Shown here piece after piece: positions 5,099-28,739 of a stretch of 36,000 nt of DNA. The stretch covers positions 1 through 36,000 of the forward strand of contig JABLWX010000020.1 of NCBI GenBank assembly GCA_013178315.1, in the 5' to 3' direction. The notes beneath the pieces are model-generated. The model saw only the letters and a program-made list of their open reading frames with translations, had not been told where the DNA came from and did not search any database. This DNA is from Candidatus Aminicenantota bacterium. GTDB lineage: Bacteria; Acidobacteriota; Aminicenantia; Aminicenantales; Saccharicenantaceae. Position 1 is the stretch's first letter. Each line of letters opens with the position of its first letter. Both the position numbers and the translations under genes were made by a program.

Positions 5099-6144
5099 GA
5101 AGTTTTGAGTCAGTTAATAAGGGGGATATAAATAAGAATAAGAATGGGAATAAAAAAAGACCCCGGTTGGTTCTTCCTTATTTTTTAGCCATTGCTTTTT
5201 TGGGGCTGGTGCTGAGCTTGAGTCCGGGTTGTCGAAAAGCTGCAAACAACGGACTGATACGGGTCACCGGAACTATCGAGAGCCGCTCGGCCAGAATCAG
5301 CCCCCGGGTCAGCGGCCGGGTGCTCAGGGTCGTGGTGGAAGAAGGCCAGTCGGTTGAACCGGGGCAGGTCCTGGTGGAGCTTGACCACGAATACCTTGAC
5401 CTGCAGCTGCGACAGGCCGAAGCCTCGGTGGCCGCGGCCCGGGCCCAGCTTGAGCTGTTGCGAAAAGGCGCCCGGAGCGAAGACATTGCCCAGGCCGAAC
5501 AGCAGCTCAAACAGGCGGAGATCAGCCTGGCCCAGGCCAGGAAAGATGCCGAACGGTTCCGAAGCCTTTATGAAAAGGGGAGTGCCACACAGAAACAGAA
5601 GGATGATGCTGAGACCAGGCTGGCCCTGGCCGAGGTCCAGTTCAACCAGGCCCAGGAAGCCCTGAAAAAATTAAAAAGCCTGGCCCGGCCAGAGGAAATC
5701 CAGGCGGCCGAAGCCCGGCTGCGCCAGGCGGAAGCGGCCGTGGACCTGCTTAGAAAAAACATTGAAGATTCCACGGTCATCTCTCCGGTTAAAGGAGTGG
5801 TCACCGAAAAGGCAGTGGAGCCGGGAGAGCTGGTCAACCCGGGCACAACCCTGGTTACCATTTCCTGTCTCGACCCGGTCCACCTCTGGGTTTATGTCAC
5901 GACCGGGGAGCTCGGCCGGGTCAGGCTGGGCGAGGTGGCCGAGGTCACCATAGATAGTTTCCCCGGGAAAACCTTTGAGGGAAAAATTATCTATATCTCG
6001 CCCGAAGCTGAGTTTACCCCGAAAAATATCCGGACCAGGGAGGACCGGGTAAAGCTGGTGTTTGCGGTTAAGATTGAACTGCCCAACCCGGAAGGACAGC
6101 TCAAGCCCGGGCTTCCGGCCGAAGCTGTTATCAGGACGGAATGA
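5095..6144 (+). CDS. HlyD-type periplasmic adaptor subunit of ABC efflux system
   Basis: 349 aa. After a 20-30 residue basic N-terminus there is one membrane segment (LVLPYFLAIAFLGLVLSL) followed by SPGC; a lipoprotein box is possible but poor. Then comes the split biotinyl-lipoyl domain (first half IESRSARISPRVSGRVLRV, second half VISPVKGVVTEKAVEPGELV). Between the halves lies a long Ala/Gln/Glu-rich coiled-coil hairpin of about 130 residues, and a beta-barrel domain follows. In such transporters this subunit bridges the inner-membrane permeases to an outer-membrane channel, which is not encoded here. Good Shine-Dalgarno (GGGGAGGA) inside the 3' end of tetR and a 4-nt ATGA overlap show translational coupling. 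By position it corresponds to E. coli YbhG. Confidence 0.88.
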   Translation: MRSFESVNKGDINKNKNGNKKRPRLVLPYFLAIAFLGLVLSLSPGCRKAANNGLIRVTGTIESRSARISPRVSGRVLRVVVEEGQSVEPGQVLVELDHEYLDLQLRQAEASVAAARAQLELLRKGARSEDIAQAEQQLKQAEISLAQARKDAERFRSLYEKGSATQKQKDDAETRLALAEVQFNQAQEALKKLKSLARPEEIQAAEARLRQAEAAVDLLRKNIEDSTVISPVKGVVTEKAVEPGELVNPGTTLVTISCLDPVHLWVYVTTGELGRVRLGEVAEVTIDSFPGKTFEGKIIYISPEAEFTPKNIRTREDRVKLVFAVKIELPNPEGQLKPGLPAEAVIRTE

Positions 6145-23548: not shown

Positions 23549-24001
23549 TCAGCCCCTGGGACTTCTGGGCTTGCGGCGGCTCTTTTTCTCGGCAATCCTG
23601 ACCATGTCCTGCAGGCTGACCGAGTCAAAGTAGTTCTTCATGACCGCGGTCCCTTCTTTCCAGATTTCGTGGGCAGCACAGTAACTGGAGCGGGGGCAAT
23701 GGTTCCTGTCGTCCACGCATTCCACCAGGCAGCAGTTGCCTTCGACCGCCTGCAGCACATCGCTCAACTTGATGGCGGCCGGGGGCCTGGACAGGGTGTA
23801 GCCGCCGCCGGCTCCTCTCTGGCTCTTGACCAGCCGGTGGTCGCGCAGCGGGATTATAATCTGCTCCAGGTAACGGATGGAAATATCCTCTTCCTCGGCC
23901 ACCTCTTTCAGTGAACGGGCCGGGGAGCTTTCCGGGTAGTGCAGGGCCAGGTTGAGCATCAACCTGGTGCCATATCGTCCCTTGGTGGAAATTCTGAACA
24001 T
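23549..24001 (-). CDS. Rrf2 family transcriptional regulator, likely Fe-S-binding
   Basis: 150 aa. N-terminal winged helix begins MFRISTKGRYGTRLMLNLAL, with RYLEQIIIPLRDHRLVKSQRGAGGGYTLSRP, the family hallmark. The dimerisation region carries several Cys in the Rrf2/IscR place: EGNCCLVECVDDRNHC and RSSYCAAHEIW. This pattern fits a [2Fe-2S] cluster, so it may sense iron-sulfur or redox state. A strong Shine-Dalgarno (GGAAGGAGG) precedes ATG 24001. It is first gene of rrf2-resB-ccsB and is divergent from iorAB-ACD, which makes it a candidate regulator of both. It is not iscR by context: no isc/suf genes follow. Confidence 0.88.
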   Translation of the reverse strand: MFRISTKGRYGTRLMLNLALHYPESSPARSLKEVAEEEDISIRYLEQIIIPLRDHRLVKSQRGAGGGYTLSRPPAAIKLSDVLQAVEGNCCLVECVDDRNHCPRSSYCAAHEIWKEGTAVMKNYFDSVSLQDMVRIAEKKSRRKPRSPRG

Positions 24002-24038: not shown

Positions 24039-24067
24039 GCTATGCAGCCATTATCTAATTTACCATA

Positions 24068-24096
24068 ATTCTATCGGAATAGTAGAGATGGGGCAA
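24068..24096 (-). promoter_or_regulatory. Promoter of rrf2-resB-ccsB
   Basis: Minus strand: -35 TTGCCC (24096-24091), 17-bp spacer, -10 TAGAAT (24073-24068). Its -35 lies 11 bp from the -35 of the divergent iorA promoter. Confidence 0.5.
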
Positions 24097-24107
24097 ATCT
24101 TATTTTC

Positions 24108-24137
24108 TTGACAGCTTTTGAGGTTAAATTGTATGCT
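24108..24137 (+). promoter_or_regulatory. Promoter of iorA-iorB-ACD
   Basis: Perfect -35 TTGACA (24108-24113), 18-bp spacer, -10 TATGCT (24132-24137). Start of transcription near 24144, about 44 nt before the iorA start. Confidence 0.5.
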
Positions 24138-24187: not shown

Positions 24188-25786
24188 ATGGAAAAAGTTG
24201 TCCTTCTCGGCGATGAGGCAGTGGCCCTGGCCGCCATCCAGGCCGGGCTGACCGCGGCCTATTCCTACCCCGGAACACCGGCCTCGGAAATAATGGAGTT
24301 CTTGATCAGGAATTCAGAGGGCGGCCGGAAGTACACGGCCAAGTGGTGTGTCAATGAAAAGGTGGCCTGCGAGGAAGCCCTGGGCGTGTCCTTTGCCGGC
24401 AAGCGGGCCATGGTCTCCTTCAAGCATGTCGGCCTCAACGTGGCCGCCGATCCTTTCATCAATTCGGCCATCACCGGGGCCAACGGGGGCCTGGTGGTGG
24501 TGGTGGCCGATGACCCGGGCATGCATTCCTCCCAGGACGAGCAGGACAGTCGCTATTATGCTGATTTTGCCCGTATTCTCTGCCTGGAACCGGCCGGCCA
24601 CCAGGAAGCCTATAACATGACCAGGGAGGCTTTTGACCTGTCCGAAAAGTTCAGGATCCCGGTGATGATCAGGCTGGTGACCCGTCTGGCCCACAGCCGG
24701 TCTTCGGTGGCAACGGCCGCGCCCCGCGAGCAGAATAAGGACCTGCCCTACGGTACCTGGCAGGACTGGACCCTGCTTCCAGGAAATGCCCGGCGGCGTT
24801 TCAGGATTCTCCTGGACAGGCAGAAAGAATTGCTGGAGTATTCCGAAAACAGCGGGTACAACCAGCTGGTGTTGAACCCCACGGGGGGACGACTGGGGGT
24901 GGTGGTTTCTGGAATTGCCTATAATTATTTCAAGGAAGTGGCCTCTTCGCTCCCGGGCGAGCCCTCATACCTGAAGGTCTCCACCTATCCATTTCCGGTA
25001 AACAAGCTCCGCCGGCTGATCGAGCAGGTGGATGAGATTCTGGTGATCGAAGAAGGTTATCCCTTCATTGAAAGGTTTCTGCAAGGGGTGGTCGGGATTT
25101 CCGGAAAGACCATCCGTGGCAAGATGGACGGAAGCCTGCCGGCCACCGGTGAGCTTACCCCGGACCTGGTGGCCAGGGCACTGGGCTTGCCAGAAAGAAC
25201 TGGATTGAAGACCGGGGATTTCAAGCTGGCGGGCAGACCCCCGCAACTCTGCGTTGGCTGTCCCCATGCCGATACCTATAAGGCCCTGAATGAAGCCATC
25301 AGGGATTTCCCCCGCCCGGTGGTCTTTTCTGACATAGGCTGTTATACGCTGGGAGCCCTTCCGCCCTATAATGCCATCCAGACCTGTGTCTGCATGGGAG
25401 CCAGCGTTTCCATGGCCAAGGGTGGGGCGGAAGCCGGCATTCATCCCTCGGTGGCAGTTATCGGTGATTCCACCTTTGCCCACTCCGGAATAACCCCGCT
25501 GCTTGATGCCGTTCACTCCAACACGGCCATGACGGTCATCATCCTGGACAACGGAACGGTGGCCATGACCGGCACCCAGCCCAGCTTTGGAACCGGGGAG
25601 CCACTCGACCGACTGGTGGCCGGCCTCGGTGTGGAACCAAACCACCTGCGGGTCATCGTGCCGCTGCCCAAGAATCACCAGGAAAACGTCAAGGTGATTA
25701 AGGAAGAACTATCCCATCAAGGCCTATCGGTCATCATCGCCCGCCGGGAGTGCATCCAGATCGTGGGCGAGAAAAAGAGGAGTTAA
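24188..25786 (+). CDS. iorA: Indolepyruvate:ferredoxin oxidoreductase alpha subunit, lacking the ferredoxin domain
   Basis: 532 aa. With IorB it converts aryl-2-oxo acids (indolepyruvate, phenylpyruvate, hydroxyphenylpyruvate) plus CoA to aryl-acetyl-CoA and CO2 with reduction of ferredoxin, using thiamine diphosphate. Seen: N-terminal pyrimidine domain (MEKVVLLGDEAVALAAIQAG, AYSYPGTPASEIMEF, CNEKVA-like VNEKVACEEALG), the CVGCPHADTYKAL block and the TPP domain (GDSTFAHSGITPLLDAV, ILDNGTVAMTGTQPS). Typical IorA is over 600 aa and ends in a two-cluster ferredoxin-like domain with CxxCxxCxxxCP motifs. Here the protein stops after IARRECIQIVGEKKRS and iorB starts 2 nt later, so no ferredoxin remnant exists. 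Confidence 0.92.
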   Translation: MEKVVLLGDEAVALAAIQAGLTAAYSYPGTPASEIMEFLIRNSEGGRKYTAKWCVNEKVACEEALGVSFAGKRAMVSFKHVGLNVAADPFINSAITGANGGLVVVVADDPGMHSSQDEQDSRYYADFARILCLEPAGHQEAYNMTREAFDLSEKFRIPVMIRLVTRLAHSRSSVATAAPREQNKDLPYGTWQDWTLLPGNARRRFRILLDRQKELLEYSENSGYNQLVLNPTGGRLGVVVSGIAYNYFKEVASSLPGEPSYLKVSTYPFPVNKLRRLIEQVDEILVIEEGYPFIERFLQGVVGISGKTIRGKMDGSLPATGELTPDLVARALGLPERTGLKTGDFKLAGRPPQLCVGCPHADTYKALNEAIRDFPRPVVFSDIGCYTLGALPPYNAIQTCVCMGASVSMAKGGAEAGIHPSVAVIGDSTFAHSGITPLLDAVHSNTAMTVIILDNGTVAMTGTQPSFGTGEPLDRLVAGLGVEPNHLRVIVPLPKNHQENVKVIKEELSHQGLSVIIARRECIQIVGEKKRS

Positions 25787-25788
25787 CG

Positions 25789-26364
25789 ATGAAGTACGAT
25801 ATCATCCTGGCAGGAGTCGGGGGGCAGGGCATCCTGTCCATTGCTTTTGTGATCGACAATGCCGCCCTGGAAGAGGGACTGTTTTTCAAGCAGGCCGAGG
25901 TTCATGGCATGTCCCAGAGGGGAGGAGCGGTCCAGTCGCACCTCCGCCTGGCCGATGGCCAGATCTACAGCGACCTGATTCCCCTGGGCCAGGCCGACAT
26001 GATCCTGAGCGTGGAACCGCTGGAAACACTGCGCTACTTTGAATACCTGAAGCCGGACGGGGCTGTCGTCTCCAGCAGGACTCCATATACCAATATCTCG
26101 GACTATCCGGTGCTGGAAGAGGTGTTCCGGGAGATAAAGAAAGCCCCGGTCCATGTCCTGATTGATTCCGAGAAGCTGGCCAGGGAAGCCGGAAGCGTCC
26201 GGGCCCAGAACATGGTTATGCTGGGAGCAGCTTCTATTTTCCTGCCACTCAAGGAAGATTCACTTAAAAAATACATCCAGGTCCTGTTCGAAAAGAGGGG
26301 ACCGCAGATTGTCCAGACCAACCTCAAGGCCTTCGACCTGGGAAGGCAGGCAGCCAGGGCCTGA
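25789..26364 (+). CDS. iorB: Indolepyruvate:ferredoxin oxidoreductase beta subunit
   Basis: 191 aa from ATG 25789, set by the AAGAGGAG site in the end of iorA; the earlier frame opening at 25750 lies inside iorA. This is the gamma-type domain of 2-oxoacid:ferredoxin oxidoreductases: IILAGVGGQGILSIA at the start, KQAEVHGMSQRGGAVQSHLR and AQNMVMLGAAS later, all typical of IorB. It completes the IorAB heterodimer. The next gene follows after 53 nt. Confidence 0.93.
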   Translation: MKYDIILAGVGGQGILSIAFVIDNAALEEGLFFKQAEVHGMSQRGGAVQSHLRLADGQIYSDLIPLGQADMILSVEPLETLRYFEYLKPDGAVVSSRTPYTNISDYPVLEEVFREIKKAPVHVLIDSEKLAREAGSVRAQNMVMLGAASIFLPLKEDSLKKYIQVLFEKRGPQIVQTNLKAFDLGRQAARA

Positions 26365-26417
26365 GGGGGGAAAGCCAGGCCGTTTGAAGGCCGGGATTTT
26401 CAGTGAAGGGATAAAAA

Positions 26418-28739
26418 ATGAAAGATAGCACTAAGGTCGTCAGCTCAATCCTGAAAAAGGCAGAGAAAGAAGGCCGCTATTTTTTGCTGGAGCCAGAGGT
26501 ATACGGGCTGCTGAGAGCCCGCGGCCTGTCGGTACCCAGGCATATCTTTCTCCCGAAAGGCAAGTCGCTTAGCGCAGCCGGTCTCAAGAGGCTGGGAACG
26601 GAACGGGTGGTGGTCAAAATTGTTTCCCCGCTCATCCTGCATAAATCTGACGTGGGCGGAGTGGCCATAGTCCGGGCCAGCCTGAAAGAAGTTCGGGCTG
26701 CGGTTGAGAAGATGTATGCTGAGATTCCTGCCAGGTACAGTCGCCTGTTCGGTCAGAACAAGGTTTCTCCGGAAGAAGTGGCGGCTTCCATCCGGGGGGT
26801 CCTGGTGGCCGAGCTGGTGGGTTTTGAACAGGTGGGTCTCGGTTCGGAGCTGCTGCTGGGCCTCAGGGTCTCAAAAGACTTCGGGCCTGTGGTGACTTTT
26901 GGTGGCGGCGGCCTGGACGTGGAATACCTGAATGCTCACCTGAAAGAAGGACATAGCCTGGCCATCCTGCCCTCTGAAGGCCTGGCGACCCGGGCCTTGC
27001 TTCCGGTCCTTGAGCCCCTGGCCGTTTTCGGAAAAATTGCCAGGGACTTCCGGGGACGCCGGGCTGTGGTCAGGCCGGAAGTTCTGGTCAGGGCGATTGA
27101 AGTCTTCCAGAAGCTGGCCGCCGACTTTTCTCCATTTAACCATAAAGAAGAATTTACCCTGGAGGAACTCGAGGTCAATCCGCTGGTCATAAGGAGAGGA
27201 AATGTCATTCCCCTGGATGGGCTGTGCCGGTTTTCCCGCCAGAAGCTGGAGCCCGCGGACAGGCCGGTGGAGCAGATAAAAAGACTTTTAGAACCGGAGA
27301 GTATCGGTATCATCGGTGTATCCGAAAAGATGAACGTGGGCCATATCATCCTCAATAACATCATCCAGAACGGCTTTCCCCGCGAAAAGATTTTCGTGGT
27401 AAAACCCGGGCTGGAAAGTATCGAGGGCTGCCGCTGCTTTCCGGACGTGGCCGCGCTGCCCGAGACTGTCGACCTTTTCATCCTCACCCTGGGTGCCGAC
27501 TTCGTCTACCCGGTGATGAAAGACCTGGTGGACCTGGAAAAGGCGCGGTCGGTAATAGTCATTGCCGGTGGTCTGGGGGAGAAAGCCGGGACCCAGAGCA
27601 TCGAGGCTGACATTCGAAGTCTGCTCCGTGAAAGACGAAGGCAGGGAAAACTGGCCCCGGTTATCAACGGGGGAAACTGCCTGGGTATTATTTCAGTTCC
27701 GGGTAAATATGACAGCACCTTTATTCCCGGGTATAAATTCCAGCGGCCCTCCGGTCTTCAGGCTGGACTGGCCGTTATCAGCCAGAGCGGGGCCTTCATG
27801 CTCTCCCGGATGAGTAACCAGGACAGGTTCGAGCCTCTCTATGCCATCTCAGTGGGCAACCAGCTGGACCTGACCCTGGGGGATTACCTTAACTATCTCC
27901 AGGGCCGCCCGGAAGTCAAGATAATCGCGGTTTATGCCGAGGGCCTGAAGCCGGGAGACGGCTGGAGGTTCCTGGAGGGGGCCAGGAAGGCAATTAGAGC
28001 CGGGCAAAAGGTCCTGGTCTATAAATCCGGGCGCAGCCCTGAAGGGCGAAAGGCCACCGCCAGCCATACGGCCTCGGTGGCCGGCGATTATGCAGTGGGC
28101 AAGAACCTGCTGAGTCAGGCCGGGGTCCTGGTGGCTGAAACCATAGACGAATTTGAGAACTACATCAGCGGCCTGATCCTGCTGGCCGGCAAAAGAATCT
28201 CCGGCAACCGGGTGGGTCTCGTCTCCAATGCCGGCTTTGAGTCGGTCATCATGGCCGACAACCTCAAGGGCGAAGATGGCGAGCTGGTGTTGCCGGAGTT
28301 TTCTGCCGACAGCGTGGCCAGAATATTGAAAGTGCTGCAGCCCCTGGGGATTGACCGGTTGCAGGATGTTCACAACCCCCTGGACGTTACGCCCATGGCC
28401 GATGATGCTACCTTCTGTGGCTGCGTCCGGGCGCTCCTGGAAGACCCCAATGTTGATTGTGCCGTGGTGTCCTGCGTCCCGATGACGGCAGCCCTGCAGA
28501 CCCTTCCTCCCGGGGAAGGCCACCGGGAAAATATTTTCGCGGCCAACAGTCTGGCTGACGGGCTGATAAAACTATTCCGGACAACCGGGAAGCCTTTTGT
28601 GGTAAACATTGATGCCGGCCGGCTCTATGACCCGCTATGCCGGCACCTGGAGAATAATGGTCTTCCGGTTTTCCGGCGTTGTGACCAGGCGGTAAGATTC
28701 ATGAGGAAACTGGTCAGTTCCGGAATAAATAAACTATAA
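26418..28739 (+). CDS. ADP-forming acyl-CoA synthetase, fused with ATP-grasp part first
   Basis: 773 aa. NDP-forming acyl-CoA synthetases turn acyl-CoA, ADP and phosphate into free acid, CoA and ATP. Residues about 10-260 are the ATP-grasp (beta) part: VVVKIVSPLILHKSDVGGVA, FGPVVTFGGGGLDVEYL and LEELEVNPLVIRRGNVIPLD. From about 285 the alpha part follows: CoA-binding Rossmann domain (PESIGIIGVSEKMNVGH), SQSGAFMLSRMSNQD, then the ligase domain with SHTASVAGDYAV, whose His is the likely phosphorylated residue (family motif SHTGxxAG; here the Gly is Ala). The order beta-alpha is the reverse of the common alpha-beta fusion. Placed after iorAB it would take the arylacetyl-CoA and yield ATP. Shine-Dalgarno AAGGG before ATG 26418. 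Confidence 0.88.
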   Translation: MKDSTKVVSSILKKAEKEGRYFLLEPEVYGLLRARGLSVPRHIFLPKGKSLSAAGLKRLGTERVVVKIVSPLILHKSDVGGVAIVRASLKEVRAAVEKMYAEIPARYSRLFGQNKVSPEEVAASIRGVLVAELVGFEQVGLGSELLLGLRVSKDFGPVVTFGGGGLDVEYLNAHLKEGHSLAILPSEGLATRALLPVLEPLAVFGKIARDFRGRRAVVRPEVLVRAIEVFQKLAADFSPFNHKEEFTLEELEVNPLVIRRGNVIPLDGLCRFSRQKLEPADRPVEQIKRLLEPESIGIIGVSEKMNVGHIILNNIIQNGFPREKIFVVKPGLESIEGCRCFPDVAALPETVDLFILTLGADFVYPVMKDLVDLEKARSVIVIAGGLGEKAGTQSIEADIRSLLRERRRQGKLAPVINGGNCLGIISVPGKYDSTFIPGYKFQRPSGLQAGLAVISQSGAFMLSRMSNQDRFEPLYAISVGNQLDLTLGDYLNYLQGRPEVKIIAVYAEGLKPGDGWRFLEGARKAIRAGQKVLVYKSGRSPEGRKATASHTASVAGDYAVGKNLLSQAGVLVAETIDEFENYISGLILLAGKRISGNRVGLVSNAGFESVIMADNLKGEDGELVLPEFSADSVARILKVLQPLGIDRLQDVHNPLDVTPMADDATFCGCVRALLEDPNVDCAVVSCVPMTAALQTLPPGEGHRENIFAANSLADGLIKLFRTTGKPFVVNIDAGRLYDPLCRHLENNGLPVFRRCDQAVRFMRKLVSSGINKL

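Follow-up and report, generated by a model that had tools for sequence, protein, structure and literature searches.

We describe a three-gene unit, iorA–iorB–acd, in a 36,000-nucleotide stretch of DNA (the window) from the genome of an uncultured Acidobacteriota bacterium, Ca. Saccharicenans (Aminicenantia). The unit probably acts as a catabolic, energy-conserving module that converts aryl-2-oxo acids into arylacetates with the formation of ATP, by combining an indolepyruvate oxidoreductase-type enzyme (IorAB) that carries a single [4Fe–4S] cluster with an ADP-forming acyl-CoA synthetase (ACD). It is a real unit and a mostly explained one, a fermentation-type pairing of oxidoreductase and ligase in a one-cluster variant, for which other lineages have fused IorB to the ligase. 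Its three open reading frames (ORFs) are consecutive, intact and on the same strand:

24188..25786, + strand: short iorA, 532 amino acids, with POR_N and thiamine pyrophosphate (TPP)-binding domains (Pfam, NCBIfam, Foldseek)
25789..26364, + strand: iorB, 191 amino acids, PF01558 (POR), above the NF005324 cut-off
26418..28739, + strand: acd, ADP-forming acyl-CoA synthetase, 773 amino acids, beta (ATP-grasp) domain followed by alpha

A gap of 2 nt separates iorA from iorB, which starts with ATG and has GAGGAG upstream, and 53 nt separate iorB from acd. The first-pass annotation of this DNA had named the same three genes, with the same 2-nt gap after iorA and the same beta–alpha order of the ligase, and had noted the missing ferredoxin domain of IorA; ORFs, Pfam and NCBIfam agree with it on all of these counts. 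Its proposal that aryl-2-oxo acids are turned into arylacetates with a gain of ATP also finds support, from gene linkage, natural fusions and characterized relatives, with substrate and direction as the predicted parts.

An old clade of short, single-cluster IorA proteins

Pfam matches in IorA comprise POR_N and TPP_enzyme_C, with PFOR_II below threshold, and a search down to E 0.1 returned no 4Fe–4S (Fer4) family. Of the 595 positions of the NCBIfam model IOR_alpha, the protein covers only 2–535, leaving the C-terminal part of the model unmatched, and its 512 bits lie under the 650.9 cut-off, although this is still the best model by far. IorB, at 282 bits, passes the cut-off of 222 for NF005324, the equivalog of the indolepyruvate oxidoreductase beta subunit. 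An identical IorA is present in a public metagenome-assembled genome (MAG) of Ca. S. subterraneus, and a frameshift or truncation as the origin of the short form is ruled out, with about 80 homologues sharing the same end point.

How common this form is had been left as a question by the first-pass annotation, and the answer is that it is common. Scanning a genome collection with the IorA of the window yielded 80 loci at 52% identity or more, which span Aminicenantes, other Acidobacteriota, Planctomycetes, Spirochaetes, Bacteroidales, Melioribacteraceae, Kapabacteria, Bipolaricaulota, betaproteobacteria and one Woesearchaeota bin. Within the window's own family, 29 of the 34 genomes searched encode a near full-length short IorA, two hold a fragment only and three give only a weak match at the level of 2-oxoacid:ferredoxin oxidoreductases (OFORs); none of the 34 reaches the long-form cut-off. 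Across 347 Acidobacteriota genomes both designs occur: all matches in the window's order are short, and nearly every sampled member of the order has one, while matches in the other orders of the class are mostly long. In Bacteroidales, IorA was found in 98 of 119 genomes, with no match passing the long-form cut-off, although a few extend to the end of the model. Two cases from this survey call for separate mention. One locus (JARYMI010000013.1) lies in a MAG titled Clostridiales, which is probably mis-named or mis-binned, and has an Aminicenantes-like IorA–ACD arrangement at 66% identity; in the other case, a single Acidobacteriota MAG (JAKPCG01) contains two iorA copies, 74 and 73% identical to that of the window, which are either two genes or two strains within one bin.

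A tree of 83 IorA sequences, with fused IorAB proteins as outgroup, places all 57 short forms together on the same side of a single branch (Shimodaira–Hasegawa-like approximate likelihood ratio test 100, branch length about 1.05). The tail beyond the last aligned residue is bimodal, with up to about 40 residues in short forms and at least 61 in long ones, and nearly all long tails carry a CxxCxxCxxxC motif. As judged from this tree, the short form is the product of a single old event. The outgroup rows have very long branches and do not hold together, so the root is unsure and with it the direction of change: loss of the ferredoxin domain in the short clade appears likely, with a gain in the long clade as the alternative.

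Four cysteines, C355, C358, C385 and C522, are invariant in the alignment columns of 28 diverse short IorAs, a set with a mean column identity of 63%, and the 14 long IorAs compared all have them too; the eight additional cysteines of the 2[4Fe–4S] domain, in two 4Fe–4S motifs, are confined to the long forms. A profile of the short family aligned with the beta subunit of the Sulfolobus tokodaii OFORs (StOFORs) places C355 and C358 on the CxGC loop and C385 on the GIGC cysteine. The predicted structure (pLDDT 82.7) has OFOR alpha subunits as its best Foldseek matches. IorA therefore has the make-up of a single-cluster OFOR, that is, four proximal-cluster cysteines, three of them aligned to StOFOR beta, and no ferredoxin domain.

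The StOFORs themselves, for which crystal structures exist, have one cluster and no intramolecular ferredoxin domain, and a ferredoxin has been modelled into the vacated pocket at electron-transfer distance (PMC5020499). The first-pass annotation had held that loss of the domain removes the electron exit and creates a special need for an external carrier. Neither part stands: because the proximal-cluster cysteines are invariant, the exit is, by its sequence, shortened and not removed, and ordinary OFORs already use external ferredoxin as the final acceptor (PMC5020499). By analogy, the most likely electron route in the short IorA leads from the proximal cluster directly to free ferredoxin. A ferredoxin had been suggested as something to look for, and a stand-alone protein of 82 amino acids is indeed encoded on another contig (C2, about 5878–6123) of the genome.

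The same genome has NiFe-hydrogenase-type large subunits, and no [FeFe]-hydrogenase was found in it, for which reason the latter was rejected as an electron sink. Other redox genes were seen along the way. On contig C70 (3022–7720), genes for NuoE/NuoF-like and Fer2_4/Fer4 proteins precede one for a protein with a glutamate-synthase domain, possibly a ferredoxin–NAD oxidoreductase cluster, and a further locus of this genome (L165:3615–4811, − strand) encodes the alpha subunit of an electron transfer flavoprotein, preceded at its N-terminus by a 2[4Fe–4S] domain, with what is probably a beta subunit alongside. Short iorAB of a Bacteroidales bin is directly followed by a flavodoxin gene (L082:8277–8765), whose product may represent an alternative carrier.

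The ligase and its linkage to IorAB

All three ACD domains score above their gathering thresholds, in the order ATP-grasp_5 (15–267), CoA_binding_2 (295–401) and Succ_CoA_lig (450–582). H75 (in LHKSD) and H550 (in SHTAS) are invariant in 13 relatives; from what is known of ACD1, we take them to be the relay histidine of beta and the phosphohistidine of alpha, respectively. The protein falls below the cut-off of every curated NCBIfam ligase model. Most of its sequence can be aligned with that of the ADP-forming 3-hydroxypropionate–CoA ligase 9y43, and the beta–alpha order, which had at first been singled out as reversed, is a known variant because 9y43 has the same one.

Short and long IorA differ in the company they keep. 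Among Acidobacteriota loci with enough flanking sequence, ACD lies near iorA (same strand, within 4 kb) in 28 of 34 short loci and in none of 34 long ones; Pta lies near 12 of the 34 long iorA genes, nine of them with acetate-kinase-family genes, and near none of the 34 short ones. These counts are not independent, as related species share history. The Pta-bearing long loci without ACD, mostly with acetate-kinase-family genes as well (L127, L138, L140, L175, L176, L178–L181, L184 and L186), belong to other Aminicenantia and Acidobacteriota. Downstream of ACD, and in favour of a catabolic unit, peptide or amino-acid transport genes were seen at some loci (L034 and L143).

At ten loci, mostly from Planctomycetes and with one deltaproteobacterial bin, IorB and a beta–alpha ACD form a single ORF of about 1000–1180 amino acids:

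IorB–ACD fusion loci: L036, L040, L044, L047, L049, L050, L053, L055, L062, L072

The five of these ten examined by Pfam have POR, ATP-grasp_5, CoA_binding_2 and Succ_CoA_lig within one chain. Such fusions are the strongest evidence that the ligase would act on the product of IorAB. PaaK was considered as the usual partner of short IorAB and rejected: it is not at the Bacteroidales loci inspected, where mreC and Omp85 genes come next, and its C-terminal domain (PF14535) has no match in the 34 family genomes.

Annotation does not distinguish the two IorA designs separated here, each of which is tied to its own ATP route, the short one with ACD and the long one with Pta and kinase wherever a partner was observed. 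Substrate channelling could readily be tested on the natural fusions, and the short clade covers the type of enzyme with which gut Bacteroides make arylacetates; both questions would gain from the structure of a small IorAB with one cluster. Going further, and only tentatively, the short IorA might be an old subfamily whose members operate as a single physical assembly with the ATP-forming ligase. With the ferredoxin domain gone and IorB paired with ACD, or fused to it as in Planctomycetes, arylacetyl-CoA could then be channelled to the ligase directly from the TPP site, and an oxygen tolerance above that of long IorA may follow from the single cluster.

Substrate and direction of the unit

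In the mechanism that we propose, an aryl-2-oxo acid derived from Phe, Tyr or Trp through an unlinked aminotransferase would bind TPP in IorA, and IorAB would carry out its oxidative decarboxylation with CoA, yielding arylacetyl-CoA. The two electrons would leave through the single proximal [4Fe–4S] cluster to a soluble 2[4Fe–4S] ferredoxin, docked at the site vacated by the lost C-terminal domain, and ACD would convert arylacetyl-CoA, ADP and Pi into arylacetate and ATP by phosphohistidine transfer. Substrate class, direction and ferredoxin docking are parts that we infer; activity of IorAB on aryl-pyruvates, arylacetate specificity of ACD and its formation of ADP, not AMP, are predicted by analogy with relatives.

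Those relatives supply the aromatic chemistry. Deletion of BT0430 in Bacteroides thetaiotaomicron lowers 4-hydroxyphenylacetate, for most of whose formation BT0430–0429 is needed, and complementation restores it (PMC10746243). An ADP-forming ligase of Clostridioides difficile encoded near an OFOR accepts phenylacetate, 4-hydroxyphenylacetate and indoleacetate as substrates (PMC13285125), and a pairing of OFOR and ligase has also been proposed for Ca. Nitrosocaldus islandicus (PMC5817080).

Several points weigh against this catabolic assignment. The three-gene unit contains no aminotransferase, and the aromatic substrate is drawn from literature on relatives; oxidation of indolepyruvate is not readable from sequence (PMC13290082). 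That BT0430 is of the short form is itself presumed from the fact that Bacteroidales IorAs are nearly all short, and the Bacteroidales loci inspected place short IorAB beside mreC and an Omp85 gene, with no acyl-CoA ligase. As to the cluster, C522 is paired with the fourth OFOR cysteine by conservation alone, and model confidence is low around C355 (weak at 344–357). Finally, matches to chorismate synthase and to prephenate dehydratase are each absent from 28 of the 34 family genomes, that of the window included, which suggests that most of the family has lost the synthesis of aromatic amino acids, so that arylacetate assimilation is possible and aromatics may be needed for biosynthesis and not as fuel.

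This last point leads to the best-surviving alternative, in which the unit runs in reverse for aromatic amino-acid synthesis, ACD activating imported arylacetates with ATP and IorAB reductively carboxylating arylacetyl-CoA with reduced ferredoxin. We consider it unlikely. Most family genomes are probably incapable of making aromatic amino acids de novo, all reactions of the unit are reversible, and an aryl-acid pathway has been proposed in Methanococcus maripaludis (as cited in PMC4162585). However, the family genomes that do bear chorismate synthase (G002, G014, G017, G021, G026 and G032) retain short IorA, related long IorAB loci carry the ATP-making pair Pta and Ack, deletion of IorAB in Bacteroides cuts arylacetate output (PMC10746243), and a reversible ADP-forming ligase would presumably drive the uphill carboxylation weakly.

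Quite improbable, too, is that short IorAB–ACD acts on other 2-oxo acids, branched-chain or generally peptide-derived, and has merely inherited its aromatic name from the IOR families. The sub-cut-off scores of IorA and ACD would fit such a shift, as would the distance of about one substitution per site between short and long IorA and the fact that aromatic specificity arises outside IOR clades too (PMC13290082). Yet IOR_alpha is the best model for IorA by far, IorB exceeds its equivalog cut-off, and deletion of BT0430, in an IorAB of like kind, alters 4-hydroxyphenylacetate (PMC10746243). A last reading, in which short iorA has decayed or been mis-assembled and is functionless, could draw on its lack of a domain present in the reference family. 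It is refuted by conservation and can be set aside as extremely improbable: the ORFs at about 80 loci are intact and equal in length, near full-length copies occur across most of the family, and active-site and cluster residues are invariant.

Upstream region and comparison with known systems

On the other side of iorA, the unit faces a divergent gene across a spacer with conserved elements:

23549..24001, − strand: Rrf2-family regulator with a cysteine cluster (Pfam), divergent from iorA, candidate regulator of the unit
24064..24085, strand not assigned: conserved upstream motif CATAATTCTATCGGAATAGTAG (also CATAATTYTATMGGAAT; in relatives CATAATTTTATAGGAATTAT), from alignment, candidate Rrf2 operator
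24108..24137, + strand: probable sigma70-type promoter, TTGACA, 18-bp spacer, TATGCT, from alignment

In 37 loci of Aminicenantales, iorA and the Rrf2-family gene are arranged head-to-head, an arrangement found neither at long-IorA loci nor in the other phyla sampled. Most of the order's aligned upstream sequences keep both promoter elements, and the conserved motif lies about 44 bp upstream, within the spacer shared by iorA and the Rrf2 gene. An Fe–S-sensing Rrf2 repressor or activator may control the unit.

Among known systems, the IorAB of Pyrococcus and Thermococcus (TIGR03336 and TIGR03334) is alike in its two subunits, with POR_N and TPP domains in IorA and a POR gamma-like IorB, in its proximal [4Fe–4S] cysteines, and in being often proposed to act together with an ADP-forming acyl-CoA synthetase. 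The IorA of the window differs in being without the C-terminal 2[4Fe–4S] domain with its eight cysteines, in scoring below the TIGR03336 cut-off and in belonging to a separate clade on a long branch. The phenylpyruvate:ferredoxin oxidoreductase (PPFOR) BT0430–0429 of B. thetaiotaomicron is likewise an IorAB-type pair from an order with nearly all short IorAs, but no ACD lies beside the Bacteroidales loci inspected, and the length of BT0430 is a presumed one. StOFOR1 and StOFOR2 (PDB 5b46–5b48) share the one [4Fe–4S] cluster and the absence of an intramolecular ferredoxin domain, whereas their arrangement of domains into subunits is different, their substrates are pyruvate and 2-oxoglutarate, and sequence similarity is remote. 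For the ligase, the 3-hydroxypropionate–CoA ligase of Nitrosopumilus maritimus (PDB 9y43) offers a full-length match in sequence and fold, with ATP-grasp (beta) and then alpha in one chain, but with 22% identity in the structural alignment and another substrate; the ACD of the window scores 225 bits against an NCBIfam cut-off of 1300. The OFOR clusters of Peptostreptococcales, as described in the accessible part of PMC13285125, have the same chemistry, with a ligase alternating with Pta/kinase beside the oxidoreductase. There, however, the assayed C. difficile ligase adjoins a VOR-like OFOR and not IorAB, and that part of the paper makes no mention of an IorB–ligase fusion or of a short IorA clade.

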